Source: Liopterus haemorrhoidalis
Taxonomy: Eukaryota > Arthropoda > Insecta > Coleoptera > Dytiscidae
Length of the DNA stretch: 64,000 nucleotides
Assembly (NCBI GenBank): GCA_963971575.1
Contig: OZ020617.1
Location: forward strand, 17,259,403 to 17,323,402
Reading direction: 5' to 3'
The translations under genes were made by a program, and so were the position numbers. This document shows, in pieces, positions 7,974-60,127 of the stretch. Under the pieces are notes generated by a model. It did no database searches. It saw nothing but the letters and a program-made list of their open reading frames with translations, and had not been told where the DNA came from. The stretch's first letter is position 1. Every line of letters starts with the position of its first letter.

Positions 7974-8530
7974 TTATTTTAAATATTGCCAAATAACCAT
8001 CTGGTTTTCAGTCACTTCTACTTCCGTTTTTGTTTTTACACGAGGATCATCCGAACTGTGGTTGCTTCTTAACCAATTTAGCATTATCGGTACTGGATCC
8101 CAATCTATTAAAGGCAAACCATTCAAATTAATAACCATTATATTACTTATATTTGAAACGCTCAGTCTGTTTCGTTTTTTTGTGCATAAATTATTCATAA
8201 GACTAAAGCCTCTTTCAGCTTCTGCTGAACTGACGGTTATGGTGTTCAAAATATTTTTTGCGTTCTGAATACTTTTGGGAATATCACATTTATCTGTATT
8301 TCTTAAGAAATTTTCAAGAAATTCTCTGTAGTCATTGATGTTTATTTCATAATTAAAAATTTCAGAAAATTGTAAAAGTTGATCTTCTGCTTCTTTCCAC
8401 GGAACTATAATATTTTCGATGTTGCAATAATTAGGCTCCAGATATTTGATAAAAAATAGACGATTTCAGTTTCGAATTTTGTCACTGCCTGTTGCTAAGG
8501 AAGTTCTCGAATTCATTAATCTCAAATTTA
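7974..8530 (-). pseudogene. hAT transposase C-terminal remnant (KIAA1586-like)
   Basis: The reading frame on the minus strand carries the hAT dimerisation signature SSAEAERGFSLMNNLCTKKR followed by NRLSVSNISNIMVI, resembling the hAT transposases related to vertebrate KIAA1586. It is open upstream of the TTG-initiated segment: FFIKYLEPNYCN and KEAEDQLLQFSEIFNYEI continue in frame, then a stop interrupts at about 8457, beyond which SRTSLATGSDKIRN is still recognisable. The zinc finger and the first part of the catalytic fold are missing. It belongs to the element with TCTAAAAT duplications. Confidence 0.8.
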
Positions 8531-16366: not shown

Positions 16367-16660
16367 TACAGTCTGTTTCAAACGCTTAGGCGGAACTAGA
16401 TTTTGCAATTTAGTTACTTTCATCGCTTAAATCGGGCTTTTCGGCCGTTTTGTTTAAGCTTTGTAGATCATACTTACAATAAATATTTTTTGGTTAAGGT
16501 TAATATCATTTTAAAATGTCATTTTCTTTATATTTTGATTTTTTGTGTCATTCTTAATACAAATTTCCCATTTTTTTTTTCTGTCATTAAAATACATAAA
16601 ATAAATAATTTAATTTTGATTCTTCATCAGATTCTGATTTGAAGTCTAATACGTTGGCTA
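16367..16660 (+). mobile_element. MITE family B copy, right end eroded
   Basis: It starts TACAGTCTGTTTCAAACGC and follows the complete copies at 27921 and 59573 closely through GGCGGAACTAGATTTTGCAA, TTTTGTTTAAGCTTTGTA and TTAATACAAATTTCCC. The right inverted end is missing. Confidence 0.8.
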
Positions 16661-19640: not shown

Positions 19641-20380
19641 CTATAAGAGGGACATACAATTGAGTGTTTGATAAGAATGAAAATCAGAATTGGTAGCGAA
19701 AAGGTACGGATTATTTTTAACAAACATTAAAGCTTCTAATATATAAACAGATGGAAGAGTTAATATAGACAAAACAAAAAAAAGGGATCTGCAAGATGCT
19801 CTAAAGGGGGCACCAGCTATTATGCGAATAGCACGTTTTTGAAGTACAAAAACCTTTGACGATTCAGAACTTCCCCAACACAAAATGCCGTATCTCATTG
19901 TTGCGTGAAAAGTTCCAAAGTAAGCAGTTCTAAGTATATCAGAAGAAACCATATTTTTAAGTTTTTTTAATATAAAACAAGATTTGCTAAGTTTAGGTAG
20001 CATATATCTAACGTGATTATGTCGACTCAGATTATCATTTATCATTATACCTAAAAATTTTGTTGACTGGGAACACTGAATACCTTTTTGTCCTTGTAAG
20101 TGGATATATGGGCTGGTAATAGGTGCATTTTTGTGTCCATGAAAGTGCAGAGCAAGACTTTTTTTTGTATTTAAAATGAGTTTATTTTCGTAGCACCATT
20201 GACTGATTGATTCCAAGTTACTTTTACCATCGAAAGCTAGTGAAGTTGCATCTGCATTATGAAGCAAGTGTAAAGTATCATCCGCATATAGACAAATAGC
20301 ATTATTTGGAAATAATGTAGGCAAATCATTTATATATAAGAGAAATAAAACTGGTTTACTAGGTTCGATAACTTCCAGGT
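19641..20380 (-). pseudogene. LINE reverse transcriptase, C-terminal part
   Basis: The frame reads PSKPVLFLLYINDLPTL, catalytic ICLYADDTLHLL, SISQWCYENKLILNTKKS, STKFLGIMINDNLSRHNHV, LKKLKNMVSSDILRTAYFGT and MRYGILCWGSSE: palm motif C through thumb and the connection region of Jockey/CR1-like LINE RTs. It is open for about 240 codons without a stop. The preceding motifs (FLD..AFD and GVPQGS) are absent because of a deletion at about 20365-20380. Confidence 0.88.
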
Positions 20381-20572
20381 TGGCGGGAAATAGAACATTG
20401 CCATTGTATGGTTTATAATTTTTGCTAATAATATTAATGTTTTGAGCGGTAATTGTTTTAATAAACGAGATGAGGTCCCATCTGGGCCTGGAGCTTTTTT
20501 ATTTTTTAGACTTTTAATAACGGACTTGAGTTCCCTCGGTGTTGTAATATATTTGACTTTAATCATAAACAA
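20381..20572 (-). pseudogene. LINE reverse transcriptase, N-terminal part
   Basis: Encodes TTPRELKSVIKSLKNKKAPG, PDGTSSRLLKQLPL and AMFYFPPTWKLSNL: the KAPGPDG and YFP..WK motifs at the beginning of LINE reverse transcriptases. The frame changes directly after WKLSNL and the C-terminal part follows, so roughly 110-140 residues of RT core are missing. Confidence 0.85.
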
Positions 20573-27833: not shown

Positions 27834-27920
27834 TATAATCCGTCTCAATTTGTAATATTATCTGTCTCATTTTGTAATACGGAATAACAGTGAAAGTTCA
27901 TTTTTAGGGTTTTGTAGGTA

Positions 27921-28325
27921 CAGTCTGTTCCAAACGGTTAAGCGGAACTAGATTTTGCAATCTAGTTACTTTCATCGTTTAAATCGTGCTTTTCGGTCGT
28001 TTTGTTTAAGCTTTGTAAATCATACTTATAATAAACATTTTTTTGGTTAAGGTTAATATAATTTTAAAATGTCGTTTTCTTTATATTTTGATATTTTGTG
28101 CATTCTTAATACAAATATCCCATTTAGTTATTTTTTTGTCAATAAAATTTGGAAAAAAAAAAATTAATTTTGACATGTCATTCGTTTCTACGGTTTCATT
28201 GTTGGAATTTTAAATTTTGACATTCCAACGTGAAAAATAAAATAACCCAAGCGAGGTCCCTTCTCGTGACAACCTAAAAGAACAAAAATCCCATTCAGTT
28301 CCGCTTAACCGTTTGGAACAGACTG
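27921..28325 (+). mobile_element. MITE family B, complete copy inside repeat R1
   Basis: Perfect TIRs of about 29 bp (CAGTCTGTTCCAAACGGTTA...) and duplicated TA on each side. Repeat R1 copy 2 contains the uninterrupted target with a single TA, so this is a genuine insertion. The 405-bp interior has no ORF of note. Confidence 0.95.
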
Positions 28326-28356
28326 TATGACCAAAAAACCCTTATACCGTCATTTT

Positions 28357-32169: not shown

Positions 32170-33908
32170 CATAGGTTCTCAAACTGGGGTACGCGTACCC
32201 CTGGGGGTACGCGAAGCATCTATTGGGGGTACGTGAGATCATTCACATAAACATACATTCATAAAGCCATAGTTTAAGAATAGCACGTTGTGGAAAAGCT
32301 CATACAATCGGTGAAGAACTGTTGTTACCTGCTGCTAAAGATATGGTTACTTGTATGTTTGATGAATCGATGGCTAACAAATTAGATACAATACCGATAT
32401 CTAATGACACCGTACGCCGCCGAATTGAAAGCATGGCATCAAATATTAAGGAAAATTTGATTGTTGAGCTTAAAAAAAGCAATTTTTTCGCTATCCAAAT
32501 AGATGAGAGCACAGACATTACTAACTACGCTCAATTGATGGTTTACGTGCGGTATATATCTGAAAGTCGTATTAATGAAGATTATTTATTTTGTGAACCC
32601 TTGGCAACCCGTACAACTGCTGCTGAAATTTTCCAAAAGTTAAATCATTTTTTTATAGAGAATGAACTGGACTGGAAAAAATGTGTTGGTTTTTGTTCAG
32701 ATTGTGCTCGGGCTATGGTTGGAAAATATGGAGGTGTGGCAATGAAAGTAAGAGCCGTAACAGAAAATTGTGCGTTCACTCATTGCAGTATTCATAGAGA
32801 AGCTTTAGCAGCTAAGGGTATGCCAGATGCACTAAAAATGTTCTTCAAGATGCCATCAAAGTAGTAAATTATATAAAATCACGAGCTGTAAACTCTCGTT
32901 TGTTTACAAAACTATGTGCTGAGATGGGTAGTGAACATATACAGTTGCTCCTTCATACAGAAATCAGATGGCTCTCTCGTGGAAAAATGTTAAGTAGATT
33001 ATTCGAGCTATATTCTGAAGTACAGCTATTTTTAACGGAAACTAATTTTGAATTGCGTGATAATCTACTTGACGAGTCGTGGATAATGACACTGGCTTAT
33101 TTATCAGACATTTTTAATCGTCTTAATAACTTGAATTTGTCATTGCAAGGTAGTGGAATTAGTCGATTTTCGGTTAATGATAAAGTTAACGCATTGATAA
33201 AAAAATTAAAAATGATGGAGGAATGTGTGTCTGATAAAAATCTGCAGTCGTTTCCAAATTTGGAAAATTTCGTGTCGGAACATGAAACAAAAATTGACAA
33301 TAATCTTATTAAAAATATTAAAATTCATTGTAAAATGCTCGCAGAATCTTTTGAAAAATATTTTCAAGAAGACTTTTCCGAAATGCTATGGATAAGGAAT
33401 GCATTCGCTATTGAAAAGTATCCATCAAATCTCAATAATAATAATAAAGAGTCATTGATTGAAATATCGTGCGATGGAGATTTAAAAATGAAGTTTAATG
33501 AATTGAAACTTGAAGAGTTCTGGCTCATGGCTAAAAGTGAATATCCAGAATTAGCCAAACAAGCATTATTGTTTTTAATACCTTTTTCAACAACTTATCT
33601 CTGTGAATGTGGGTTTTCCTCCATGGTGATTTTAAAAAACAAATATCGAAATAAATTAAATATCGATCCTAATATGCGGTTAAAATTGAGTAATCGAGAG
33701 CCCGATATTGAATCACTTATTTCAAGCATGCAGCTTCATCCTTCCCACTAAAGTTGGTAAGTGTATTTTCATGTATGTTTTTTTCAGTCAAGTCTGCTTT
33801 GTTTAACAATTTTCAAATTGTTCCGATTTTTTTTACCTTTTTGGGGGTACGCGCCTGTTCTGGAATTGACATAAAGGGTACTCAAAAAAAAAAGTTTGAG
33901 AACCTATG
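32170..33908 (+). mobile_element. hAT element with intact ends and TSD
   Basis: TIRs CATAGGTTCTCAAACT and AGTTTGAGAACCTATG are perfect over 16 bp; ATGTAGAT is duplicated exactly at 32162-32169 and 33909-33916. Subterminal GGGGGTACG motifs are repeated near both ends (four on the left, one on the right). At 1739 bp it keeps most of a transposase but lacks the 5' coding part. Confidence 0.96.
32265..33751 (+). pseudogene. hAT transposase (ZBED5/FAM200-like), lacking BED finger
   Basis: The frame is open from 32265: LRIARCGKAHTIGEELLLPA, then FFAIQIDESTDITNYAQLMV (first catalytic D), GFCSDCARAMVGKYGGVA (second D), HCSIHREALAAKGMPDAL, HTEIRWLSRGKMLSRLFELY and the hAT dimerisation segment LIPFSTTYLCECGFSSMV with NKYRNKLNIDPNMRLKLSN, ending LHPSH. 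One frameshift of a base near 32836 (an A run) divides two otherwise open halves. No start codon or N-terminal BED zinc finger precedes it, so DNA recognition is lost. Apart from this and the frameshift it looks young. Confidence 0.93.
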
Positions 33909-34070: not shown

Positions 34071-36776
34071 TCTATATATATAAAAGGCAGTGTCCTGACT
34101 GACTGACTGACTGACTGACTGACTGACTCACTCATCACCGCCCAGCCCGAACCCCTGGGCCTAAGAACTTGAAATTCGGAGAGTATATTCCCTTCATGAC
34201 GTAAGCACCCACTAAGAAGGGATTTTTCGAAATTCCACTCCTAAGGGATGAAAAGGGGTGAAATATGATTTCACGAATTCCTTAATTTCTCTTAGGGCCG
34301 ATGGGATATCGATTTAGTTTTTGCTTACAAGTAATACCCATACAAATACCGAAAAACCAATTTCGGGATTTTGCTCTAATCAACCCCTAAAGGGGTGAAC
34401 CTTCAATCGGGGTGGATTATACATCCCGTTGTATTTCCTGTATTCGTTTAGTTGCAAGATTACTTTTTGGCACATAGGTGTCTTTTTAAAATATCTCGAA
34501 ATGGTATTGACAGTTTTATGAAATTTCACCCCTAAAGAGTGAAAAGGGGTGAATTGTGATTTTAAGGATTCTTTAATATCTCTTAGGACCAATAAGATAT
34601 CGACTTGCTTTTTGCTTACAAAGATTACCCATACAAATACCGAATCACCAATTTCAGGATTTTGTCCTAATCAACCCCTAAAGGGGTGGATCTACAATCG
34701 GGGTGAATTATACATCCCGTCGTAATTCCTGTGTTCGTTTAGTTGCAACATTACTTTTTGGCACATAGGTGTCTTTTTAAAATATCTCGAAATGGGTTTG
34801 ACAGTTTTTTAAAATTCCATCTCTAAGGGTTGAAAAGGGGTGAATTGTGATTTCAAGGATGCCTTAATATCTTTTAGGATCAATAAGATATCGACTTACT
34901 GTTTGTTTTCAAAGATTATCCATACAATTACCGAAAAACTTATTTCAGGAATTTGTCCTAATCAACCCCTAAAGTGGTGGTTCTACAATCGGGGTGAGTT
35001 ATACATTCCGTCGTATTTCCTGTGTTCGTTTAGTTGCAACATTACTTTTTAGCACATAGGAGTATTTTTAAAATATCCCGAAAAGGTTTTGTTAGTTTTT
35101 TTAAATTTCACCCCTATAGGGTGAAAAGGGATGTATTGTGATTTCAAGGATTCCTTAATATTTCTTAGGACCAATAAGATATCGACTTGCTTTTTGCTTA
35201 CGAAGATTACCCATACAAATACCGAAAAACTTATTTCAGGATTTGGTCCTAATCAACCCCTAAAGGGATGGATCTACAATCGGGGTGGATTATACATCCC
35301 GTTGTATTTCCTGTGTTCGTTTAGTTGCAACATTAATTTTTGGCACATAGGTGTTTTTTTAAAATATCTCGAAACAGTTTTTTTAAATTTTCAAGTGATT
35401 ATGATTGATAGTGATTTCAAGGATTCCTTAATATCTCTTATGACCAATAAGATATCGACTTGCTTTTTGCTTACAAAGATTACCAATACAAATACGGAAA
35501 AATATATTACAGCATTTTGTCCTAATCAACTCCTAAAGGGTGAATCTACAATTGGGGTGAATTATACATCCCGTCGTATTCCCTGTGTTTGTTGATTTAT
35601 AAGGTTTCTTTTTGGCACATAGGCGTATTTTTAAAATATCTCGATATGGTTTTGACAATTTTTTTAAAATTTAACCCCTAAAGGGTGAAAAGGGATAAAA
35701 TGTGATTTCAAGGATTGTTTAACATTTTTTAGGACCAATAAGATATTGACTTGGTTTTTGCTTGCAAAAACTACCCATGCAAATACCGAAAAACCAAATT
35801 TTTGATTTTGTCCTAATCAACCCCTTAAGGGGAGGATCTACAATCGGGATGAATTATACACCCCGTCGTATTTCCTGTGTTCGTTTAGTTGCAACATTAC
35901 TTTTTGGCACATAGGTGTTTTTTTTTTTTTTATTTTCACCCCTTAAGGTTGAAAAGGGGTGAAATGTGATTTCAGGAATACCTTATGTCTTTTAGGACCA
36001 ATAAGATATCGACTTGGTTTCTGCTTATAAAGATTACCCATACAAATGCCGAAAAATGTATTTCAGGAATTTTGTATTCAATTGAACATCCCTTGGACAT
36101 AGATAAATAAAATTCGTGAAGTATACTCCCTCCATGACGTAAGCAGCCACTAAGACGGGATTTTTCGAAATTCCACCCCTAAGAAGTGAAAAGGGGTGAA
36201 ATGTGATTTCAAAGATTCCTCAATACCGCTTAGGACCAATAAGATATCGTCTTGGATTTTGCTTACAAAGATTACCCATACGAAAAACTTATTTCAGGAT
36301 GTTGGCCGAATCAACCCCTATAGGGGTCTACAGTCGGGGTGAATTATAGAGCCCTTTGTATATCCAGCGGTTGTTGAGTTATAACATTCCATTTTGGCAT
36401 ATATGTGTTTTGACAGTTTTCTTTCACTCCTAAAGGGTAAATTAGTATTTTTTTGTTAGAAATAAAAAATTACGGGAGTACATTTTTAAAATAAAAATAT
36501 ATAAAAATAAAATAAAAATAAAAAATTATAGGAGAGTACATTTTTCAGTATGACGTAAGAACCCACTAAGAAAGTATTTTTTCAAGTTCGACCCCTATCT
36601 GGTGAAAAGGAGTAAAATGTTTTTTCACGGATTCCTCAATATCTCTTAGGACAGATGAAATATCCACTAGATTTTTTGTTACAAAGATTACCCATACACA
36701 AGTTTAAAAACAAACTGCGGATTTTATGCCAATGAGACCATCAATATACCGTAGCGAAGCACTGGTTTTCAGCTAG
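34071..36776 (+). mobile_element. Helitron A, non-autonomous
   Basis: Begins TCTATATATATAAAAGGCAG after an A and ends with stem CCGTAGCGAAGCAC(T)GG then TTTTCAG and CTAG before T: the TC...hairpin...CTAG, A|T-target structure of Helitrons. A (CTGA)n run follows the 5' end. The interior is about eight tandem units of 265-292 bp. No Rep or helicase coding sequence exists. Confidence 0.92.
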
Positions 36777-36780
36777 TTTA

Positions 36781-38485
36781 TCTATATATATAAAAGCAAG
36801 TGTCCTGACTGACTGACTCATCACCGCCCAGCCAGGAGAGCATATTCCCTCCACAACGTAAGCACCCACTAAGAAGGGATTTTTCGAAATTCAACCCCTA
36901 AGGGGCGAAAAGGGGTGAAATGTGATTTCACGGATTCTTTAATATCTCTTCGGGTCGATGGGATATCGACTTAGTTTTTGCTTACAAAGATTACTCATAC
37001 AAATGCCGAAAAACCTATTTCAGGATTTTGTCCTAATCAACTCCTAAAGGGGTGAATCTACAATTGGGGTGAATTTTACATCCCGTCGTATTTCCTGTGT
37101 TTGTTGAGTTATAAGGTTTCTTTTTGGCACATAGGTGTCTTTTTATAATACCTCGAAATAATTTTGACAGTTTTTTAAAATTTCACCTTTAAAGGGGTAA
37201 ATGGGTATTTTTTTATTCGATAGAACGTTTTTTAGACATAGATACATGAAATTCGCAAAGTATATTCTTCCCATGACGTAAGCACCTACTAATAAGAGAT
37301 TTTTCGAAGTTGACCTCGAAGGGTCTAAAAAGGGGGTCAAATATGATTTCAGGGATTCCTCAATATCTCTTAGGACCAATCAGATATCGATTTGGTTTTA
37401 ACTTACAATGGTTATCTAAACAAATGTTTAAATAACATAGGAATTCAGAATTTTGTCTTAATTAACCTCTAAATTGAACCCTTCGTATTTCCAGTTTCTT
37501 AGTTCCAATCTTTGTTGAGTTATAACACTCATTTTTGATAGAACATCTCTTGGACATAGAGACATGAAATTCGGTAATTATATTCCGTCCATGATGTAAG
37601 CACCCTCTAAGAAGGGGTTTTATGAAATTCCAGCCCTAAGGGGTGAAAAGGGATGCAATTTGATTTCAGGGATTCCTCAATATCTCTTAGGACTAATGAG
37701 ATATAGACTTGATTTTTGCTTAAAAAGGTTACCCATACATTTTTTTTTATTCAGGATTTTTCCCTAATCAACCCCTAAACGGGTGAATCTACATTCGGGT
37801 TGAATTATAGAAACCTTTGTATTTCCTGAGTTATAACATTTCATTTTGGTGCATAAGTTTCTATTCAAAATATTTAGAAAGCGTTTTTACAGTTTTTTTA
37901 ATTTCATTCCTAACGGGGTAAATTGGTATTTTTATCCGATAGAACGTCCCTTGACATACAGACATTCGGGAAATATATACCCTCCATGACGTAAGCACCC
38001 ACTAATATGGAATTTTTCAAAATTCGGTCCCTAAGGGGGTGAAATTGGCTAAAATGTGATTTCACGGATTCCTCAATATCTCTTAGGACCATTGAGATAT
38101 CGACTTGGTTTTTAATTACAAAGGTTAACCATAAAAATATAAAGTTATGTCAAAATTATACCCTAATCAACCCCTAGAGAAGAATTATAAAACTCTTCGC
38201 ATTTTCTTCGTTTGTTGAGTTATAATATTCCTTTTAACATATATATGTCTTTCTAAAATGTTTAAAAAGTTTTACAGTTTTTTTATACTCAGTAGTTCGA
38301 GCCCTATATTGTGTAAAAGAGTATAATGTTTTTTCATGGTTTCCTCAATATCTCTTAGGACAGATGAGATATCGACTAGGTTTTTGCTTACAAAGGTTAC
38401 CCATACACATGTTTCAAAACAAACTGAGGATTTTACACTAATGCGTCCGTCACTATACCGTAGCGAAGCACGGGTACCCAGCTAG
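36781..38485 (+). mobile_element. Helitron B, head to tail with A
   Basis: Starts TCTATATATATAAAAGCAAG and ends CCGTAGCGAAGCACGG, GTACCCAG, CTAG followed by T. Only TTTA separates it from Helitron A. Internal units (about five) are more diverged and shorter than in A, with TTCGGGAAATATATACCCTCC and CATGACGTAAGCACCCACTA blocks recurring. Confidence 0.92.
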
Positions 38486-44355: not shown

Positions 44356-44700
44356 TACTCTACAACTAGCTTATTTCAACTAAATTATGTTGTTTAATAA
44401 ATCAAACAATGAAGGTATACGAAGTATAGCACCTGTGATAAACTTAGTTTAAATAAGAACCGTATTACCTAAAAAGAAGGGTTAGTGGGGAGCCTCCTTA
44501 TATACTTGCGAGCTTTATATAACAATTGACTAACGTTTAGGTAATCTTTAATAACGTTTAGGTAACCTTTGTAATCATTAAAATTGGAAATTATTTTTTA
44601 TTTTTTTTAATTATATTGTTTTTTTGGCCATTAGTCTATATAACCATATTAGCCAGCTAAATACAAACTTATACATTATATACAAATATACAAATTTATA
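44356..44700. other. AT-rich, nothing recognised
   Basis: No domain, repeat end or exon is visible in this stretch. Confidence 0.4.
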
Positions 44701-45068
44701 CAGTCTGTTCCAAATGGTTAAGCGGAACTAAATGGGAATTTAGTTCTTTTAGGTTGTCACGAGAAGGGACCTTGCTTGGGTTATTTCATTTTTCACGTTG
44801 GGATGTCAAAATTTAAAATTCCAACAATGAAACCATGGAAACGAATGACATATGTCAAAATTAAATATTTTTTTTAGATATTTTAATGACAAAAAAAATA
44901 AATAAATGGGAAATTTGTATTAAGAATGACACAAAAAATCAAAATATAAAGAAAATGACATTTTAAAATGATATTAACCTTAACCAAAACGGCCGAAAGG
45001 CACGATTTAAACGATGAATGTAACTAGATTGCAAAATCTAGTTCCGCTTAACCGTTTGGAACAGACTG
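44701..45068 (-). mobile_element. MITE family B copy
   Basis: Ends CAGTCTGTTCCAAATGGTTA and AACCGTTTGGAACAGACTG are inverse. TA precedes it; CA follows, a mutated TSD. The interior is in the opposite orientation to 27921-28325. Confidence 0.9.
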
Positions 45069-45077
45069 CACATTATA

Positions 45078-45300
45078 TAAGCTGTTCACTTTTGTAAGAA
45101 GACACTATGAATGGATATTTTGGTTACTTTTATAGTGTGTTACTGACTTTAAATGTCAATTAAAAATATTCCTTACGCTGTAAAACCGACTTTAGGTTGA
45201 TAAGGTTATGATCATTATAATTAAGATATCATTTTTCATTATGACATATGGATCGACATTTTGAAAAAGTGACATTTTTTAATATCAACATGTGCAACAT
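45078..45300 (+). mobile_element. MITE family A, right end lost
   Basis: Begins TAAGCTGTTCACTTTTGTAA and follows the complete copy at 27532 to about ATATCAACATG, where the match ends at a LINE fragment. Confidence 0.8.
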
Positions 45301-45309
45301 GTGTATATA

Positions 45310-45525
45310 ATAATCCATTTTTATAATTTTTATTAATTTTGTTATGTAATTTCTGTATGTTTTATATTGCGTTTTTAAATTTTCATTATGCGCATGCGTT
45401 AATAATTTATGTTTTATTTTGTCTCTTTTACGGATTGATTTAAGTAGACCAACGGTCATCCATGGTTTAAGTTTTTCAAGTTTTTTTTGTATTCTAATTT
45501 TCTTTGTAGATAAATTTATATAAGA
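45310..45525 (-). pseudogene. LINE linker, continuation of the LINE at 57.3-59.2 kb
   Basis: The minus strand reads YINLSTKKIRIQKKLEKLKP, WMTVGLLKSIRKRDKIKHKL and NLKTQYKTYRNYITKLIKI: the segment after the endonuclease of Jockey/CR1-like LINEs (KPW.T..L..SI..RD.....). It starts exactly at the 3' end of Helitron C and is in frame with the endonuclease interrupted at 57339. Confidence 0.82.
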
Positions 45526-48500
45526 CTAGCTGAAAACCCGTGCTTCGCTACGGTATATTGATGGTCTCATTGGCATAAAATCCGCAGTTTGTTTTTAAAC
45601 TTGTGTATGGGTAACCTTTGTAACAAAAAATCTAGTCGATATCTCATCTGTCCTAAGAAATATTGAGGAACCCGTGAAAAAACATTTTACTCCTTTTCAC
45701 CAGATAGGGGTCGAACTTGAAAAAATCCTTTCTTAGTGGGTTCTTACGTCATACTGAAAAATGTACTCTCCGAATTTTTTATTTTTAACAAAAAAATACT
45801 AATTTACCCTTTAGGAGTGAAAGAAAACTGTCAAACTGTGAAAACATATATGCCAAAATGGAATGTTATAACCAGGGCTTCGAACCGTTATTTTTTTCGT
45901 TTCAGTTTTCGTTCCGGTTCAATTAAAAAAATATATATCGGTTCGGTTCCGGTTTTCGTTCCGGCAAAAATAACGGTTTTTTTCGGTTTTCGGTTTTTGG
46001 TTCAGTTTCGGTTCGAAGCCCTGGTTATAACTCAACAACCGCTAGAAATACAAAGGGTTCTATAATTCACCCCGAATGTAGATTCACCCCTTTAGGGATT
46101 GATTAAGATAAAATCCTGAAATACATTTTTCGGCATTTGTATGGGTAATCTTTATAAGCAAAAACCAAATTTATATCTTATTGATCCTAGAAGATATTAA
46201 GGCGTCCTTGAAATCACAATTCCCTCTTTTCACCCTTTAGGGGTGATATTTGTTAAAGGTAAAAAACTGTTAAAACCATTTCGAGACATTTTAAAAAGAC
46301 ACAGGAAATACGACGCGATGTATAATCTACCCCGTTTCTAGAATCACCCCTTTAGGGGTTGATTAGGATGTAATCCTAAAATAAGTTTTTCGGCATTTGT
46401 ATGGATAATTTTTGTAAGCAAACACCAAGTCGATATCTTACTGGTCCTAAAAGAATTAAGGAATTACTGAAATCACATTTCACCCCTTTTCACCGTTAAG
46501 GGGTGAAATTAAAAAAAAAATGTCAAAATCATTTCGAGATATTAAAAAAAAAAAAAAACCCCTATGTGCCAAAAAGTAATGTTGCAACTAAACGAACACA
46601 GGAAATGCGATGGGATGTATAATTCACCCCGATTGCAGATCCACCCCTTAAGGGGTCGATTAGGACAAAATCAAAAAAATGATTTTTCGGCATTTGGAAG
46701 GGTAGTTTTTGTAAGCAAAAACCAAGTCGATGTCTTATTGGTGTTAAAAAATATTAAACAATCCTTGAAATCACATTTCACCCCTTTTCGCCCTTTAGGG
46801 GTTAAATTTAAAAAAGTTGTCAAAACCATTTCGAGATATTTTAAAAAGACGCCTATGTGCCAAAAATAAACCTTATATCTCAATAAACACAGGGAATACA
46901 ACGGGATGTATAATTCACCCCGATTGTAGATCCATCCTTTAGGGGTTGATTAGGACAAAATCCTGAAATCTATTTTTCGGTATTTGTATGGGTAATCTTT
47001 GTAATCAAAAAGCAAGTCAATATCTTATTGGCCCTAAGAGATTTAAGGAAACCTTGAAATCACAATTCACCCCTTTTCACCCTTTAGGGATGAAATTTTA
47101 AAAAACTGTCAAAACCTTTTCGAGATATTTTAAAAAGACACCTATGTGCTAAAAAGTAATGTTGCAACTAAACGAACACAGGAAATACAACGGAATATAT
47201 AACTCACCCCGATTGTAGATCCATCCCTTTAGGGGTTAATTAGGACAAATTCCTGAAATAAGTTTTTCGGTAATTGTATGGATAAACTTTGCAATCAAAC
47301 AGTAAGTCCATATCTTATTAGTCCTAAGAGATATTAAGGAATCCTTGAAATCACAATTCACCCCAGGGGTGAAATTTTAAAAAACTGTCAAACCCGTTTC
47401 GAGATATTTTAAAAAGACACCTATGTGCCAAAAAGTAATGCTGCAACTAATGAACATAGGAAATACGACGGGGTGTATAATTCACCCTGATTCTAGATCC
47501 ACCCCTTTAGGGGTTGATTAGGACAAAAACCTGAAATATGTTTTTCGGTATTTGTATAGGCAATCTTTGTAAGCAAAAAGCAAGTCGATATCTTATTGGT
47601 TCTAAAAGATATTAAGGAATACTTCAAATCATAATTCACCCCTTTTCACCCTATAGGGGTGAAATTTTAAAACACTACCAAAACCTTTTCGAGATATTTT
47701 AAAAAGACTCCTATGTGCTAAAAAGTAATATTGCAACTAAACGAACACAGGAAATACGACGGAACGTATAACTCACCCCGATTGTAGATCCACCCCTTTA
47801 GGGGTTGATTAGGACAAATTCCTGAAATAAGTTTTTCGGTAATTGTATGGATAATCTTTGCAAGCAAACAGTAAATCGATATCTTATTGATCCTAAGAGA
47901 TATTAAGGAATCCTTCAAATCACAATTCACCCCTTTTCAACCCTTAGGGGTGGAATTTTAAAAAGTAATGTTGCAACTAAACGAACACAGGAAATGCGAC
48001 GGGATGTATAATTCATCCCGATTGTAGATCCACCCCTTAAGGGGTTGATTAGGACAAAATCCAAAAATTGGTTTTTCGGTATTTGCATGGGTAGTTTTTG
48101 TAAGCAAAAACCAAGTCGATGTCTTATTGGTGTTTAAAAATATTAAACAATCCTTGAAATCACATTTCACCCCTTTTCGCCCTTTAGGGGTTAAATTTAA
48201 AAAAGTTGTCAAAACCATTTCCAGATATTTTAAAAAGACGCCTATGTGCCAAAAAGAAACCTTATATCTCAATAAACACAGGGAATACGACGGGATGTAT
48301 AATTCACCCCGATTGTAGATCCATCCTTTAGGGGTTGATTAGGACAAAATCCTGAAATATATTTTTTGTAAGCAAACACCAAGTCGATATCTTATTGGTC
48401 CTAAAAGAATTAAGGAATTACTGAAATCACATTTCACCCCTTTTCACCCTTAAGGGGTGAAATTAAAAAAAAATGTCAAAATCATTTCGAGATATTAAAA

Positions 48501-51500
48501 AAAAATATATGTGCCAAAAAGTAATGTTACAACTAAACGAACACAGGAAATGCGACGGGATATATAATTCATCCCGATTGTAGATCCACCCCTTAAGGGG
48601 TTGATTAGGACTAAATCCAAAAATTGGTTTTTCAGTATTTGCATGGGTAGTTTTTGTAAGCAAAAACCAAGTAGATATCTTATTGATCCTACAAAATGTT
48701 AAACAATCCTTGAAATCACATTTTACCCCTTTTTACCCTTTAGGGGTTAAATTTAAAAAAATTGTTAAATCATTTCGAGATATTTTAAAAATACGTCTAT
48801 GTGCCAAAAAGAAACCTTATAACTCAACAAACACAGGGAATACGACGGGATGTATAATTCACCCCAATTGTAGATCCATCCTTTAGGGGTTGATTAGGAC
48901 AAAATTCTGAAATATATTTTTCGGTATTCGTATGGGTAATCTTTGTAATCAAAAAGCAAGTCAATATCTTATTGGCCCTAAGAGATTTAAGGAAACTTTG
49001 AAATCACAATTCACCCCTTTTCACCCTTTAGGGATGAAATTTGAAAAAACTATCAAAAACTTTTCGAGATATTTTAAAAAGACACCTATGTGCTAAAAAG
49101 TAATGTTGCAGCTAAACGAACACAGGAAATACAACGGAATATATAACTCACCCCGATTGTAGATCCACCTCTTTAGGGGTTGATGAGGACAAAATCCTGA
49201 AATAAGTTTTTCAGTATTTGTATGTGTAAGTAATATTTGTAAGCAAAAAGCAAGTCGATATCGTGTTGGTCCTAAGAGATATTAAGGAATCCTTGAAATC
49301 ACAATTCACCCCTATTCACCCTTTAGGGGTGAAATTTTAAAAAAACTGTCAATACTATTTCGAGATATTTTAAACAGACATCTATGTGCCAAAAATTAAT
49401 GTTGCAACTAAACGAACAGAGGAAATACGACGGGATGTATAATTCACCTTGATTGTAGATCCATCCCTTTAGGGGTTGATTAGGACCAAATCCTGAAATA
49501 AGTTTTTCGGTATTTGTATGGGTAATCTTCTTAAGCAAAAAGCAAGTCGATGTCTTATTGGTCCTAAGAGATATTAAGTAATCCTTGAAATCACAATTCA
49601 TCCCTTTTCATCCTTTAGGGGGTAATTTAAAAAAAATGTCAAAACTATTTCGAGATATTTTAAAAAGATACCTATGTGCCAAAAAGTAATGTTGCAACTA
49701 AACGAACACAGGAAATACGGCGGGATGTATAATTCACCCCGATTGCAGATCCCCAAAAAACAAAATCGATGTCTTATTGGTGTTAAAAAATATTAAACAA
49801 TCCTTGAAATCACATTTCACCCCTTTTCGCCCTTTAGGGGTTAAATTTAAAAAAGTTGTCAAAACCATTTCGAGATATTTTAAAAAAACGCCTATGTGCC
49901 AAAAAGAAACCTTACATCTCAATAAACACAGGGAATACGACGGGATGTATAATTCACCCCGATTGTAGATCCATCCTTTAGGGGTTGATTAGGACAAAAT
50001 TCTGAAATATATTTTTCGGTATTCGTATGGGTAATCTTTGTAATCAAAAAGCAAGTCAATATCTTATTGGCCCTAAGAGATTTAAGGAAACTTTGAAATC
50101 ACAATTCACCCCTTTTCACCCTTTAGGGATGAAATTTGAAAAAACTATCAAAAACTTTTCGAGATATTTTAAAAAGACACCTATGTGCTAAAAAGTAATG
50201 TTGCAGCTAAACGAACACAGGAAATACAACGGAATATATAACTCACCCCGATTGTAGATCCACCTCTTTAGGGGTTGATTAGGACAAATTCCTGAAATAA
50301 GTTTTTCGGTAATTGTATGGATAAACTTTGCAAGCAAGCAGTAAGTCCATATCTTATTGGTCTTAAGAGATATTAAGGAATCCTTGAAATCACAATTCAC
50401 CCCTATTCAACCCTTAGGGGTGAAATTTTAAAAAACTGTCAAACCCGTTTCGAGATATTTTAAAAAGACACATATGTGCCAAAATGTAATGCTGCAACTA
50501 ATGAACACAGGAAATACGACGGGATGTATAATTCACCCTGATTGTAGATCCACCCCTTTAGGGGTTGATTAGGACAAAAACCTGAAATATGTATTTCGGT
50601 ATTTGTATAGGTAATCTTTGTAAGCAAAAAGCAAGTCGATATCTTATTGGTTCTAAGAGATATTAAGGAATACTTGAAATCATTATTCACTCCTTTTCAC
50701 CCTATAGGGATGAAATTTTAAAACACTACCAAAACCTTGTCGAGATATTTTAAAAAGACTCCTATGTGCTAAAAAGTAATATTGCAACTAAACGAACACA
50801 GGAAATACGACGGAATGTATAACTCACCCCGATTGTAGATCCACCCCTTTAGGGGTTGATTAGGACAAATTCCTGAAGTAAGTTTTTCGGTAATTGTATG
50901 GATAATCTTTGCAAGCAAACAGTAAATCGATATCTTATTGATCCTAAGAGATATTAAGGAATCCTTCAAATCACAATTCACCCCTTTTCAACCCTTAGGG
51001 GTGGAATTTTAAAAAACTGTCAAACCTATTTCGAAATATTTTAAAAAGACACCTATGTGCCAAAAAGTAATGTTGCAACGAAACGAACACATGAATTACG
51101 ACCGGATGTATAATTCACCCCGATTGTAGATCCACCCCTTTAGGGGTTGATTGGGACAAAATCCTGATATTGGTGATTCGGTATTTGTATGGGTAATCTT
51201 TGTAAGCAAAAAGCAAGTCGATATCTTATTGGTCGTAAGAGATATTAAATAATCCTTAAAATCACAATTCACTCCTTTTCACCCTTTAGGGGTGAAATTT
51301 TAAAAAACTGTCAATACCATTTCGAGATATTTTAAAAAGACACCTATGTGCCAAAAAGTAATTTTGCAACTAAACGAACACAGGAAATACCGCGGGATGT
51401 ATAATCCACCCCGATTGTAGGTTCACCCCTTTAGGGGTTGATTAGGGCAAAATCCCGAAATTGGTTTTTCGGCATTTGTATGGGTAATACTTGTAAGCAA

Positions 51501-51730
51501 AAACTAAGTCGATATCCCATCGGCCCTAAGAGATATTAAGTAATTCGTGAAATCACATTTCACCCCTTTTCATCCCTTAGGAGTGGAATTTCGAAAAATC
51601 CCTTCTTAGTGGGTGCTTACGTCATGAAGGGAATATACTGTCCGAATTTCAAGTTTCTAGGCCCAGGGGTTTGGGCTGGGCGGTGATGAGTGAGTCAGTC
51701 AGTCAGGACACTGCCTTTTATATATATAGA
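45526..51730 (-). mobile_element. Helitron C with about 21 tandem units
   Basis: On the minus strand it begins TCTATATATATAAAAGGCAG (right end, 51730) and finishes with stem CCGTAGCGAAGCACGG, GTTTTCAG and CTAG (left end, 45526). The interior is a tandem array of about 21 units, mostly 285-295 bp, several truncated. Open frames of 60-100 codons recur with the unit and are not genes. No Rep/helicase. The left third contains a hAT MITE. Confidence 0.93.
45873..46023. mobile_element. 151-bp hAT-type MITE inside Helitron C
   Basis: Perfect 15-bp TIRs (CAGGGCTTCGAACCG / CGGTTCGAAGCCCTG) and an exact 8-bp duplication GTTATAAC. The interior is low-complexity TTCGGTTTTCGG text. The equivalent site in Helitron D (about 52064-52071) is uninterrupted. 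Confidence 0.96.
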
Positions 51731-54700
51731 CTAGCTGAAAACCCGTGCTTCGCTACGGTATATTGATGGTCTCATTGGCATAAAATCCGCAGTTTGTTTT
51801 TAAACTTGTGTATGGGTAACCTTTGTAACAAAAAATCTAGTCGATATGTCATCTGTCCTAAGAGATATTGAGGAATCCGGGAAAAAACATTTTACTTCTT
51901 TTCACCAGATAGGGGTCGAACTTGAAAAAATCCTTTCTTAGTGGGTTCTTACGTTATACTGAAAAATGTACTCTCCGATTTTTTTATTTCTAACAAAAAA
52001 ATACTAATTTACCCTTTAGGAGTGAAAGAAAACTGTCAAAACTCATATATGCCAAAATGGAATGTTATAACTCAACAACCGCTGGAAATACAAAGGGTTC
52101 TATAATTCACCCCTTTAGGGGTTGATTAAGATAAAATCCTGAAATTCATTTTTCGGCATTTGTATGGGTAATTTTTATAAGCAAAAACCAAGTCTATATC
52201 TTATTGATCCTAGAAGATATTAAGGCGTCCTTGAAATCACAATTCTCTCTTTTCACCTTTTAGGGGTGATATTTGTAAAAGGTAAAAAACTGTTAAAACC
52301 ATTTCGAGACATTTTAAAAAGACACCTATGTGCCAAAAAGAAACGTTATAACTCAACAAACACAGGAAATACGACGCGATGTATAATCTACCCCGTTTGT
52401 AGAATCACCCCTTTAGGGGTTGATTAGGACGAAATCCTGAAATAAGTTTTTCGGCATTTGTATGGATAATTTTTGTAAGCAAACACCAAGTCGATATCTT
52501 ATTGGTCCTAAAAGAATTAAGGAATTACTGAAATCACATTTCACCCCTTTTCACCCTTAAGGGGTGAAATTAAAAAAATGTCAAAATCATTTCGAGATAT
52601 TAAAAAAAAACACCTATATATTAAGGAATCCTTGAAATCACAATTCATCCCTTTTCACCCTTTAGGGGGTAATTTTAAAAAAATGTCAAAACTATTTCGA
52701 GATATTTTAAAAAGATACCTATGTGCCAAAAAGTAATGTTGCAACTAAACGAACACAGGAAATACGACGGGATGTATAATTCATCCCGATTGTTGATCCA
52801 CCCCTTAAGGGGTTGATTAGGACAAAATCCAAAAATAGGTTTTTCGGTACTTGCATGGGTAGTTTTTGTAAGCATAAACCAAGTCGATATCTTATTGGTG
52901 TTAAAAAATATTAAACAATCCTTGAAATCACGTGGACATCCTAGCAAAAAGTGTAAACAAAAAGCAAGTCGATAACTTATTGGTCCTAAGAGATATTAAG
53001 GAATCCTTGAAATCACAATTCACCTTTTTCATCCGTTAGGGGTGAAATTTAATAAAAACTGTCAATACTTATTCGAGATATTTTAAAAATACATCTATGT
53101 GCCAAAAATTAATGTTGCAACTAAACGAAGAGAGGAAATACGACGGGATGTATAATTCACCTTGATTGTAGATCCATCCCTTTAGGGGTTGATTAGGACC
53201 AAATCCTGAAATAAGTTTTTCGGTATTTGTATGGGTAATCTTCGTAAGGAAAAAGCAAGTCGATATCTTATTGGTCCTAAGAGATATTAGGAATCCTTGA
53301 CATCACAATTCTTCCCTTTTCACCCTTTAGGGGGTAAATTTTAAAAAAATGTCAAAACCATTTCGAGATATTTTAAAAAGATACCTATGTGCCAAAAAGT
53401 AATGTTGCAACTAAACGAACACAGGAATTACGACGGGATGTATAATTCACCCCGATTGTAGATCCACCCCTTTAGGGGTTGATTAGGACAAAATCCTGAA
53501 ATTGATGATTCGGTATTTGTATGGATAATCTTTGCAAGCAAACAGTAGGTCCATATCTTATTGGTCCTAAGAGATATTAAGGAATCCATGAAATCACAAT
53601 TCACCCCTTTTCAACCCTTAGGGGTTAAATTTTAAAAAAATGTCAAACCCATTTCGAGATATTTTAAAAAGACACCTATGCGTCAAAAAGTAATGCTGCA
53701 ACTAATGAACACAGGAAATGCGACGGGATGTATAATTCATCCCGGTTGTAGATCCACCCCTTAAGGGGTTGATTAGGACAAAATCCAAAAATTGGTTTTT
53801 CGGTATTTGCATGTGTAGTTTTTGTAAGCAAAAACCAAGTAGATATCTTATTGGTCCTAAAAAATGTTAAACAATTCTTGAAATCACATTTTACCCCTTT
53901 TTACCCTTTAGGGGTTAAATTTATAAAAATTGTTAAAACCATTTTGAGATATTTTAAAAATACGCCCATGTGCCAAAAAGAAACCTTATAACTCAACAAA
54001 CACAGGGAATACGACGGGATGTATAATTCACCCCAATTGTAGATCCACCGTTTAGGGGTTGATTAGGACAAAAATCCTGAAATATATTTTTCCGTATTTG
54101 TATGGCTAATCTTTGTAAGCAAAAAGCAAGTCGATATCTTATTGGTCCTAAGAGATATTAAGGAATCCTTGAAATCACATTTCACCTCTTTTCGCCCTTT
54201 AGGGGTTAAATTTTAAAAAGTTGTCAAAACCATTTCGAGATATTTTAAAAAGACGCCTATATGCCAAAAAGACACCTTATATCTCAATAAACACAGGGAA
54301 TACGACGGGATGTATAATTCACCCCGATTGTAGATCCATCCTTTAGGGGTTGATTAGGACAAAATCCTGAAATATATTTTTCGGTATTTGTATGGGTAAT
54401 CTTTGTAATCAAAAAGCAAGTCAATATCTTATTGGCCCTAAGAGATTTAAGGAAACCTTGAAATCACAATTCACCCCTTTTCACCCTTTAGGGATGAAAT
54501 TTTAAAAAACTATCAAAACCTTTTCGAGATATTTTAAAAAGACACCTATGTGCTAAAAAGTAATGTTGCAACTAAACGAACACAGGAAATACAACGGAAT
54601 ATATAACTCACCCTGATTGTAGATCCCCCCCCTTTAGGGGTTGATTAGGACAAATTCCTGAAATAAGTTTTTCGGTAATTGTATGGATAATCTTTGCAAG

Positions 54701-56387
54701 CAAACAGTAAATCGATATCTTATTGATCCTAAGAGATATTAAGGAATCCTTGAAGTCACAATTCACCCCTTTTCAACCCTTAGGGGTGGAATTTTAAAAA
54801 ACTGTCAAACCCTTTTCGAGATATTTTAAAAAGACACCTATGTGCCAAAAAGTAATGTTGCAACGAAACGAACACAGGAATTACGACGGGATGTACAATT
54901 CACCCCGATTGTAGATCCACCCCTTTAGGGGTTGATTAGTGCAAAATCCTGAAATTGGTGATTTGGTATTTGTATGGGTAATCTTTGTAAGCAAAAAGCA
55001 AGTCGATATCTTATTGATCCTAAGAGATATTAAAGAATCCTTAAAATAACAATTCACCCCTTTTCACCCTTTAGGGGTGAAATTTTAAAAAACTGTCAAT
55101 ACCATTTCGAGATATTTTAAAAAGACACCTATGTGCCAAAAAGTAATGCTGCAACTAATGAACACAGGAAATACGACGGGATGTATAATTCACCCTGATT
55201 GTAGATTCACCTCTTTAGGGGTTGATTAGGACAAAAACCTGAAATATGTTTTTCGGTATTTGTATAGGTAATATTTGTAAGCAAAATGCAAGTCGATATC
55301 TTATTGGTTCTAAGAGATATTAAGGAATACTTGAAATCATAATTCACCCCTTTTCACCCTATAGGGGTGAAATTTTAAAACACTACCAAAACCTTTTCGA
55401 GATATTTTAAAAAGACTCCTATGTGCTAAAAAGTAATATTGCAACTAAACGAACACAGGAAATACGACGGAATATATAACTCACCCCGATTGTAGATCCA
55501 CCCCTTTAGGGGTTGATTAGGACAAATTCCTGAAATAAGTTTTTCGGTAATTGTATGGATAATCTTTGCAAGCAAACAGTAAATCGATATCTTATTGATC
55601 CTAAGAGATATTAAGGAATCCTTTAAATCACAATTCACCCCTTTTCAACCCTTAGGGGTAAAATTTTAAAAAACTGTCAAACCCATTTCTAGATATTTTA
55701 AAAAGACACCTATGTGCCAAAAAGTAATGTTGCAACGAAACGAACACAGGAATTACGACGGGATGTATAATTCACCAAGATTGTAGATCCACCCCTTTAG
55801 GGGTTGATTAGGACAAAATCCTGAAATTGGTGATTCGGTATTTGTATGGGTAATCTTTGTAAGCAAACAGCAAGTCGATATCTTATTGATCCTAAGAGAT
55901 ATTAAAGAATCCTTAAAATAACAATTCACCCCTTTTCACCCTTTAGGGGTGAAATTTCAAAAAACTGTCAATACCATTTCGAGATATTATAAAAAGAAAC
56001 CTATGTGCCAAAAAGTAATCTTTCAACTAAACGAACACAGGAAATACAACGGGATGTATAATCCACCCCGATTGTAGGTTCACCCCTTTAGGGGTTGATT
56101 AGGGCAAAATCCCGAAATTGGTTTTTCGGCATTTGTATGGGTAATACTTGTAAGCAAAAATTTAGTCGATATCCCATCGGCCCTAAGAGATATTAAGTAA
56201 TTCGTGAAATCACATTTCACCCCTTTTCATCCCTTAGGAGTGGAATTTCGAAAAATCCCTTCTTATTGGGTGCTTACGTCATGAAGGGAATATACTCTCC
56301 GAATTTCAAATTTATAGGCTCAGGGGTTCGGGCTGGGCGGTGATGAGTGAGTCAGTCAGTCAGGACACTGCCTTTTATATATATAGA
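51731..56387 (-). mobile_element. Helitron D with about 16 tandem units
   Basis: Same ends as Helitron C: minus strand from TCTATATATATAAAAGGCAG at 56387 to CTAG at 51731. It abuts C with no spacer; the T required outside its CTAG is the first base of C. The final 700 bases at its right end and the 500 bases at its left end are nearly identical to those of C. Lacks coding sequence. Confidence 0.93.
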
Positions 56388-57338
56388 TAGATAATAAACA
56401 TACATCCGTTCGCAACAGTTGTTTAGGTTAGACTGACTGTAAACTAAATGCAACCTCAGGCTTCGGGTTATAACAATTACGCACGAAAATGCACGATGTC
56501 CGAAGCTGCACTAAAGCCATCCAACTAAATAATTCTCAAAACTATGTTAATGCCCAAATATAAATAAAAACAAAATTCATGAATATCGTTTCTAATGCGA
56601 TTTTTTTTATCGTTATACAGACGGCATTTTCTACCTGTAAACCAAATTTCCACACTCATCAAATTTGCATAAAAACTCAGTACCATATGTGGGTTACAAT
56701 TTCCGAATATTTTCTATTTTATAGATACAGAAAATAGATGTTTTTAAACAAAAATAGAAGAATGAGCAAGTAGCCCACACTGAAAAAATATGGCTATCAA
56801 TCGCATTTAAATCAATATTCGTAAAAAAAAGATAGAAAAAAAAGTAATTATAATAAAAATAAGTTAAGAAAACTCCGTTAAAAATAATTATCCAGAAAAC
56901 AGATATTCAGCTTATGTCTCGCTCTACATACACGAACCATAAGTTTTGCTAAATAACAATAACAATTTATTATCAGCTGTAACCAAACACCGGTTTTATT
57001 TTCTACAATGTTTACGTCCTGATAAAGGTTATTCTCGGGCCGAACACTTCCGATATTTAGCGAACACTCAAGATGTTCATACAGTTAGACAGTCAACTAT
57101 TGAATGAAAATTCCTATCCGGTCACTGCATATGTGATAGATATACCAATGGTCGAATGTAATTAAAAACAAAATTATTAATTTCTCGTTTCTGATGGGAC
57201 TTTTTTGAGATTTTCGATTTTTCTAGTTATGATGAAGCCATTTGCTACCTGTATGCAAAATTTCAACTCGGTAGCGTATCTGGAAGTGGGTTAGAATTTC
57301 CGGACATAGCCACAAATATCCATTTTTATATATAAAGA
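56388..57338 (-). mobile_element. Helitron E, 5' segment of a different family
   Basis: On the minus strand it starts TCTTTATATATAAAAATGGA directly after an A in the LINE frame. The interior has two diverged copies of a unit with ATTTxCTACCTGTAxxCxAA, GTGGGTTxxAATTTCCG and TATTTTTATAT-like text. No CTAG or 3' hairpin precedes Helitron D, so its own 3' end is missing. It contributes the last dozen codons of the frame ending at 57291. Confidence 0.75.
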
Positions 57339-58250
57339 TTTTAAAATAGTATTGAAATTATTGTTCGCTACTTCAGCGTCAGGATTTTGTAAGACTGTAT
57401 CCCATTTTTCTTCACGCAAGTAATTGTTTAGTTTTTCATAGTCAATACAGTTTTTCTGGATGACAGGCTTTTTATTTTTGTTTTCGTTTAAGTTTATGTC
57501 TAATAGTACAGGATAATGGTCCGTTATGTCTGGTTTCAATATATATGGAATAATTACTTTCGATTTTAAGGACATTTTTACAAAAATATGGTCTATACAT
57601 GAGCTAGATGTAGGAGTAACTCTAGTTGGTTTGTTTATATATGAACAATATCCGTTGCTTTCCAATATATTTAAATAAGACTGAGTTATTATATTATCTG
57701 TATCTAATATGTTAATATTAATATCTCCAATAAGCATATTTATATTATTAGTTTCACCCTTTAATATAGTAGCTAGATCATCTAAAAATAATTGGACGTT
57801 AGTTGATGGGAGTCTATATACCGCAGTTATATTAAATGTTATGTTTTTAATTACGAAACTAATTTTTGAAAATGTATTTTCGGAAATAAATATATTTTTT
57901 ACGTTACATTCAATTTTATCTCTTACATATATAATTAATCCATCGTTTTGGTTAAAATTCGCGTGGTTATAAAATAGATTATAATTATTTATATTTATAT
58001 TGTCTACATTTTTTACCCTAAAAGTTTCCGATAGAATAATTACATCACAAGACTGGAGTTTAAAAGTTTCTAATAGTAACAGTAATTCATCATAATTTGC
58101 CTCAACACTTCTTATGTTCATATGTAGTATTTTCAATGTAGTATTTTTATTTACCGAAAAATCCACTAAATTTGAAAAATTATCACAATATTGTGTGTCA
58201 ATACTTACAATCTCGTCACTCAATAGGTCCATGCTGCAGGAGAGTTTCAC
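57339..58250 (-). pseudogene. LINE endonuclease (ORF2 start), interrupted by Helitrons
   Basis: About 305 codons are open. Motifs: KILHMNIRSVEANYDELLLL (N), VIILSETFRVKNVD (E), DGLIIYVRDKIECNV, FNITAVYRLPS (Y), NMLIGDININIL (D/N), SYLNILESNGYCSYINKPTR with SCIDHIF (D), and DITDHYPVLL (DH). This is the apurinic-like endonuclease of Jockey/CR1-like LINEs. The frame runs into Helitron sequence at 57338 and stops at 57291. The upstream limit M at 58250 is plausible; ORF1 lies further upstream on the same strand. No stop in the endonuclease, so the copy was young when interrupted. Confidence 0.9.
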
Positions 58251-58476
58251 TGATGGTATTTAAACGAAATACTACCAAATGTATATTAGTGTAATTTTTT
58301 ATGTGTATTTAATGATGAGTAACTTCTCTATTTGCAGTAAATTAAATTATTACCTGAAAACAGTGTGCAGTGTGTATCAATAAATTAGTAAAATAATTTT
58401 GTACAAAGAGTATTAATTGTAAGTTCAAAATATAATTAGAAAAAAGATATATTAATTTCTAGTAGTGTTAATCAGG

Positions 58477-59400: not shown

Positions 59401-59572
59401 AAGTGTCAAAAAATATTTATATGTCAGATAACTTCAAAAATATATAACTGCGTAAAAACAAATTACATGGAGAATTTTCTCCATAAAATCTACGCCAAGA
59501 ATATAAATAAAAGTCTAAATATGTAAATAATAATAAAATATACCAAAAAAATAAAATAATATAAATAATATA

Positions 59573-59971
59573 CAGTCTGTTCCAAACGGTTAGGCGGAAC
59601 TAGATTTTGCAATCTAGTTACTTTCATCGTTTAAATCGTGCTTTTCGACCGTTTTGTTTAAGCTTTGTAAATCATACTTACAATAAACATTTTTTGGTTA
59701 AGGTTAATATCATTTTAAAATGTCATTTTCTTTATATTTTGATTTTTTGTGTCATTCTTAATACAAATTTCCCATTTATTTATTTTTTTGTCAATAAAAT
59801 AAGTAAAAAAAATTATTAAATTTTGACATATGTCATTCGTTTCCATGTTGGAATTTTAAATTTTGACATTCCAACATGAAAAATGAAATAACCCAAGTAA
59901 GGTCCCTTCTCGTGACAACCTAAAAGAATGAAATTCCCATTTAGTGCCGCCTAACCGTTTGGAACAGACTG
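59573..59971 (+). mobile_element. MITE family B, complete copy
   Basis: TIRs CAGTCTGTTCCAAACGGTTA and the inverse, with TA duplicated at 59571-59572 and 59972-59973. Very similar to 27921-28325 throughout; GGCGG replaces AGCGG near the left end and its inverse at the right end matches, as if both ends changed together. Confidence 0.93.
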
Positions 59972-60127
59972 TATATTTACAATGTACGAAACTGAACATC
60001 TGTCAAATTGGACTGAAAACAATATTTTAACATTGTAATAGGGATGACGTTCTAAGCCAATCCGAAGCAAGGACAAACAGCTCTTATCTACTTACACACA
60101 TTTTTCTACTTTGAAATAGACCATAGT

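Follow-up and report, generated by a model that had tools for sequence, protein, structure and literature searches.

An 11,813-bp block of Helitron sequence interrupts a long interspersed nuclear element (LINE) gene in the genome of the beetle Liopterus haemorrhoidalis, and on balance we read this block as a stack built in steps, in which a composite of a front module (segment E) and a following Helitron (segment C) would have come first and a second Helitron (segment D) would have landed later, E being an element that swaps the bodies behind it. The block occupies positions 45526-57338, on the minus strand, of a stretch of 64,000 nucleotides (hereafter the window; G000:C6:17259403-17323402 of the 1.02-Gb assembly), where the three segments E, D, and C break the LINE frame. 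Among the copies compared here E is a common front end with exchanged bodies. More tentatively, E might be a promiscuous front module without a terminator that persists by body exchange, the window having caught one such exchange half done. The parts of the block and of the interrupted gene are as follows.

57339..58259, minus strand: LINE ORF2 (open reading frame 2) endonuclease frame, 5' part (open frame, Pfam Exo_endo_phos, empty-site paralogs)
56388..57338, minus strand: E, 951-bp Helitron front module, 5' end TCTTTATATATAAAAATGG, no CTRR at the 3' edge, ending in GTTTATTATCTA
51731..56387, minus strand: D, D-type Helitron of 4,657 bp with both ends complete (TCTATATATATAAAAGG, then hairpin and CTAG)
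51731..51758, minus strand: 3' terminator of D, hairpin CCGTAGCGAAGCACGG and CTAG
45526..51730, minus strand: C, D-type Helitron of 6,205 bp with both ends complete, head to tail with D (CTAG|TCTATATA)
45526..45553, minus strand: 3' terminator of C, hairpin and CTAG, then the T of the LINE
46299..56255, minus strand: arrays of a tandem unit of ~291 bp, the bulk of C and D
45300..45525, minus strand: LINE ORF2 resumed for 226 bp, then interrupted by another repeat (frame, empty-site paralogs)

The block is cleanly inserted in an old retrotransposon gene. The last stretch of the LINE endonuclease frame is ACTATTTTAAAA at 57339, and TCTTATATAAATTT at 45525 picks it up in frame; the LINE frame has a Pfam Exo_endo_phos match (E=1.4e-8). 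Among the 79 homologs of the joined 380-residue LINE protein, whose named relatives are largely from insects (e.g., Cacopsylla and Callosobruchus), the alignment crosses the join in 53, and the 26 join-spanning alignments that were printed have gaps of just a few residues there. A 38-base pattern taken from both LINE flanks located uninterrupted sites elsewhere in the genome, one exact (C6:19545142) and one with 1 mismatch (C13:10570612), and the empty-site paralogs match the two window flanks at 97.5 and 97.8% (L038) and at 96.2 and 93.7% (L039), both meeting exactly at the junction. The target of the block was A|T, and these empty sites indicate insertion without target duplication. The original prediction, made from the letters of the window, had placed the block precisely within one LINE ORF with the frame kept on joining, had named A|T as the Helitron target, and had proposed looking for an empty LINE copy; all three points were borne out. 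No relatives were found in viral contigs, either by pattern searches or with the LINE protein, nor by a pattern search of the genome contigs collection. Around 45300, where the LINE ends, lie an inverted-end repeat (TTCCGCTTAACCGTTTGGAACAGACTG) at 44697-45071, with copies near 59562-59975, 27918-28328, and 16361-16619 that are ~88-95% alike, and an adjoining repeat at 45073-45292.

All three segments carry the canonical TC at the Helitron 5' terminus (TCTTTATATATAAAA in E, TCTATATATATAAAA in D and C). D and C also have the canonical 3' end, CTAG with a hairpin 12 nt before it, which E by itself lacks, its 3' edge having neither a CTRR nor a hairpin comparable to theirs. D and C belong to one Helitron family, sharing the 5' end TCTATATATATAAAAGG, the 3' hairpin CCGTAGCGAAGCACGG, and CTAG, and neither has an open frame of 150 aa or more, so that both are presumably non-autonomous. 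The 5' motif TCTWTATATATAAAA has five exact occurrences in the window versus 0.25 expected from shuffles (one mismatch allowed). Regarding the bases at the edges, T follows CTAG in 10/10 copies with a detected 3' end (in L018 and L023 it belongs to a further TCTATATA), A precedes the 5' end in the five copies of the D lineage with ordinary flanks, and A stands directly before TCTTT at 16 of 20 E loci, the remaining four having an extra TCT or TCTT. E had also been considered as a non-Helitron insert with a TCTT target-site duplication, prompted by the LINE sequence TCTTATAT that resembles the TCTTTATATA of E, and this was set aside because the E 5' end occurs at 495 places in the genome and the flanks differ right before it at the 20 loci fetched; these loci were chosen by the 5' motif, and its presence there is no independent evidence.

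The window holds a second head-to-tail pair of the same family, on the plus strand, consisting of F (34071-36776, with one base of its 3' hairpin changed, GCACTGG) and G (36781-38485), separated by the four bases TTTA. At the 5' end D, C, and F are about equally distant from one another (21/560 sites differ for D-C, 24/540 for D-F, and 22/540 for C-F), the last 262 bases differ at 8/262 (D-C), 8/260 (C-F), and 15/262 sites (D-F), and in the first 2 kb the D-C identity is 92.2%, above those of D and C with F (87.8 and 87.4%). We rejected a rolling-circle concatemer as the origin of the D-C pair, chiefly on the ground that D shares 99.5% identity with a stand-alone copy at another locus, more than it does with C. 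Inside C, an insert of 167 bp (45865-46031) with perfect 23-bp inverted ends interrupts the C-D and C-F alignments and resembles a small terminal inverted repeat element.

The evidence for body exchange comes from what follows E elsewhere in the genome. The 20-mer that closes E, just ahead of the linker, occurs exactly at 132 places, of which the first 30 were surveyed (our samples are largely from contig C1, and some places recur across them, e.g., L064 = L023 = locus A, L056 = L022, L041 = L016, and L050 = L020). Directly behind E, 28/30 continue into a D-type body, 21 of the GGCAG type and seven of the GCAAG type, and at the twenty-ninth (L041) the body is reached through an unrelated insertion of 1.3 kb. 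The absence of a 3' end proper to E, as had been claimed from the window, is thus upheld by 29 of these copies. For a comparison of E with its bodies we assembled 24 full-length E copies, namely 20 of the 30 loci together with the window, L027, L028, and locus B (described below); the 10 loci dropped had no body within reach (two), an E shorter than 900 bp (three), or a 3-kb locus that did not take in the E 5' end (five). E diverges among them by 0.80% on average and 1.60% at most, versus 6.23 and 11.80% for the first 620 bp of the body, which is the more diverged part in 260/276 pairs. The first 125 bases of the body, lying outside the tandem units, give a similar picture (mean 5.31%, body more diverged in 239/276 pairs), and the pair L043 and L064, without a single difference in E (0/940), has 51/612 differing sites in the body.

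With a cut at 1.5% these bodies form 12 lineages, and with a cut at 2.5% eight. Between lineages (240 pairs) E differs by 0.80% and the body by 7.03%, and within lineages (36 pairs) by 0.75 and 0.87%, respectively; since the lineages were defined by body similarity, just the equality within them is informative on rates, and it indicates that the bodies do not simply evolve faster. Some linkers recur with a single body lineage (L054/L057, L027/L042, and L044/L059). Our reading of these comparisons is that E would have acquired different bodies again and again, at a single point and within a short time, some of the joined units having multiplied afterwards.

A second sample, taken from the other end, leads to the same join. 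The 29-base E 5' end has its 495 genome places with two mismatches allowed, and the 20 fetched comprise 13 with the E module (L025 with an internal gap) and seven of a sister subfamily, E'. In 11/13 E copies the module gives way, always at one position, to a TCTA linker followed by a D-type 5' end; the twelfth (L016) has its body past the ~1.3-kb insertion in the linker and the thirteenth (L020) has no body behind E. The body ends in CTAG and T at six of the 12 E-body loci (L017, L018, and L022 to L025), which are composites of the type described for FoHeli, i.e., mobile units with an outer and a buried 5' terminus and a single 3' terminus. Three of these (L017, L018, and L024) lie at three different sites and are 0.1-0.4% apart in E and 0.2-0.4% apart in the body 5' end, from which it follows that E-body units multiply. 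As for E', at 4/7 loci the E-type 5' end is followed by a CCGTAGCGAAGCACGGG..CTAG 3' end and T at 5.2-5.6 kb, with a similar hairpin layout, and at the other three there is no such 3' end within the 6 kb fetched. The E-type 5' end and this 3' end therefore appear to be paired ends in this genome, and the earlier view that the two outer ends of the block come from different families is not borne out. We also observed a recurrent composite (L010, L012, L016, L019, L027, and L028) of E, a stretch of ~0.8-1.1 kb from a GCAAG-type body, an E'-type 5' end (~93%), and further sequence, an arrangement in which several 5' ends are buried.

D is a stand-alone Helitron lineage that moves without E. Its last 341 bases have at least 40 scored matches among those listed, six of them identical, including the one of the window itself, and the copy at C1:75252257-75256914 is 99.5% identical to D over all 4,657 bases (22 mismatches and two gaps), with plain DNA and no E in front. 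A diagnostic 26-mer of D, searched for exactly and therefore missing relatives with an altered motif, occurs at nine genome places including the window. E is absent in front of all eight of the others, five of which have ordinary flanks and three of which abut the 3' end of another Helitron. The same motif is absent from the 28 sampled E-attached bodies and from locus B, and the E-D junction was seen at the window locus alone. At G000:C16:37820597-37834000, Helitrons of the D lineage form a tandem array that repeats every 4,464 bp and whose sampled ends are identical, as expected from a rolling-circle concatemer or from a recent local duplication.

Junctions like the one between D and C are frequent. 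Exact abutting CTAG|TCTATATATATAAAAG junctions occur at 190 places genome-wide and at none with the reversed control, a count that includes some share of local duplicates, since the C16 array repeats D every 4,464 bases; CTAG directly before the E 5' end occurs at three places. The exact GGCAG-type 5' 32-mer has 1,261 places, which is a lower bound for the family, and by our own estimate less than one such junction would be expected if 10,000 copies landed at random among ~1e8 AT sites. When seven D-type tandem junctions were compared, no two loci shared both members, and in three of them the downstream member was common (0.2-1.2%) and the upstream members different, which indicates that the upstream members arrived separately. 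Landing at the 5' edges of other Helitrons is thus common. Two further places in which a body exactly abuts an E-body unit, C1:133066728 (locus A) and C1:171044535 (locus B), were found among 100 listed E starts, paired with 53 of 100 listed junction places (those on C1-C3 that could pair).

We therefore favour a sequence of events in which a composite of E and C would have inserted as one element between the A and the T of the LINE. The E-D|C arrangement would then be due to D, a stand-alone Helitron that probably arrived afterwards and took as its target the A|T at the boundary of E with the buried C 5' end. Rolling-circle transfer starting at the E 5' end would run into the body that follows and stop at its CTAG, so each new body landing in the slot behind E could become the next partner of E, and the window would then represent an exchange in progress. 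Several observations weigh against this account. The order, E-C first and D second, is one that we infer; among the nearest relatives, by which it might have been dated, L052, L056, and L058 stand closest to D, C, and F alike. No E copy with a C relative closer than 1% was found among the sampled bodies, the nearest E-attached ones being 2.1-3.3% away. The downstream body lineage of locus A was seen just as the downstream member of tandems and never behind E in the sample, which would suit the arrival of an E-body composite at a body already in place, and locus B, with the same E-body|body layout, has two bodies that share the lineage motif and fits a local duplication. One of the 30 E ends (L050 = L020, C1:75002782) is followed by unrelated DNA, and at six of the 12 E-body loci (L010, L012, L016, L019, L027, and L028) the body 3' end was not reached. 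Lastly, sharing a body brings E copies hardly any nearer to one another (0.75%, versus 0.80% for copies with different bodies), and the correlation of E distance with body distance is weak (Mantel r 0.26, with 5/2000 permutations as high); plain joining followed by amplification would predict more.

The uniformity of E could also mean that E is an independent short Helitron which in general lands almost exclusively on D-type 5' edges and landed last here, before a resident D-C pair. This we regard as unlikely. E is young and uniform and its neighbours are diverse, as would be expected, and the near-equal E distances within and between body lineages, as well as the one E locus without a body, go in the same direction. 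However, E has no recognisable terminator, 29/30 of its ends lead into a body despite the far larger number of A|T sites in other places, and E travels with bodies, as the three multiplied units and the recurring linkers indicate. At the locus without a body (L050), E stops at GTTTATTA and its final TCTA is missing, which suggests truncation; unrelated DNA beginning with T follows. This is a truncated copy or, alternatively, a rare bodiless E.

It seems improbable that C was the resident element and that its 5' edge received E and D together, as a composite already made at another locus. E-body units do move and locus A resembles such a case, but E stands at none of the other eight D-lineage places and the D motif is missing from all 28 sampled E-attached bodies. 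Equally doubtful is an exchange of partners by recombination or template switching in the shared (TCTA)n / TCTATATATA tract, with no landing involved. The junction is indeed a variable TCTA microsatellite that merges with the body 5' ends, but such a process alone predicts neither the abutting E-D|C layout nor the 190 stacked junctions. Finally, the proposal of the original prediction, that E lost its terminator and one rolling-circle transfer ran through D and C and moved all three together, is very unlikely on the sequence evidence: E does lack a terminator, and read-through of an intact Helraiser terminator was estimated at ~11.7% of events (PMC4778049), but the hairpin and CTAG of D are intact and would have had to be ignored, D is without E at 8/8 other places, and among the seven tandem junctions no pair has both members in common. 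That proposal had leaned on the argument that sequential insertion should have stranded the remainder of E beyond the inserted element, which fails because E copies elsewhere stop at the same point and enter a D-type element (11/13 by the 5' end, 29/30 by the 3' end). What survives of it is an E without a 3' end, in E-body joins that recur, six of them with the body CTAG; for the window, stacking plus a composite takes the place of the run-through.

Parts of this picture have precedents. In Fusarium oxysporum, FoHeli elements likewise have an outer 5' end, a buried 5' end, and one 3' end, and the model proposed for them is self-insertion, a nick at the outer 5' end, and a stop at the first 3' end (PMC5148889); the same paper reports a Helitron inserted 2 bp upstream of the partial 5' terminal sequence of another. 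The repeated 5' pieces of FoHeli are typically <200 bp, in contrast to a 951-bp module joined at one fixed point to 12 body lineages (at the 1.5% cut) in 24 copies. As in maize (PMC3288121), nested Helitrons yield mobile elements with extra termini, but the internal 3' ends sampled in maize are mostly without an intact CTAG (99/100), and here the extra termini are 5' ends and the body CTAG is kept in the six composites where it was reached. The stopping step that we invoke is the one proposed for Fusarium (PMC5148889), and it resembles the nested origin suggested for maize Helitrons (PMC3288121). New families made of merged segments of other families are known from the silkworm (BmHel-6, -9, and -10; PMC3789558), at the level of consensus sequences, and partner exchange behind a constant front module is not described in the portion of that paper available. 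Head-to-tail junctions and insertion beside another Helitron are reported in bats and plants (PMC4778049, PMC5876387); in the bat elements Helraiser and Helibat read-through captures flanking DNA, unlike here, where the terminator of a second Helitron is used.

Nested and multi-terminus Helitrons have therefore already been published, and the recurrent exchange of bodies is what looks new; our literature search found no constant 5' module with repeatedly exchanged bodies within the portions of text covered, subscription papers being outside its scope and novelty thus unproven, and the terminal motif had no matches in the paper texts. Helitron families are often defined by their ends. As one 5' end is common here to so many body lineages, ends and bodies have separate histories and a classification based on ends would mislead. 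The pattern also suggests a way for an element without a terminator to keep spreading, and the model of nested insertion with a stop at the first 3' end is testable with ~130 natural copies in one genome.

The window contains remnants of other elements as well. Probable remnants of hAT-type transposases lie at 32265-33751 (plus strand), where overlapping frames match DUF4371 at a score under the curated cut-off, and at 7974-8465 (minus strand), which matches Dimer_Tnp_hAT, and RVT_1 reverse transcriptase fragments of other LINEs lie at 13123-13641 and 19641-20498, both on the minus strand.

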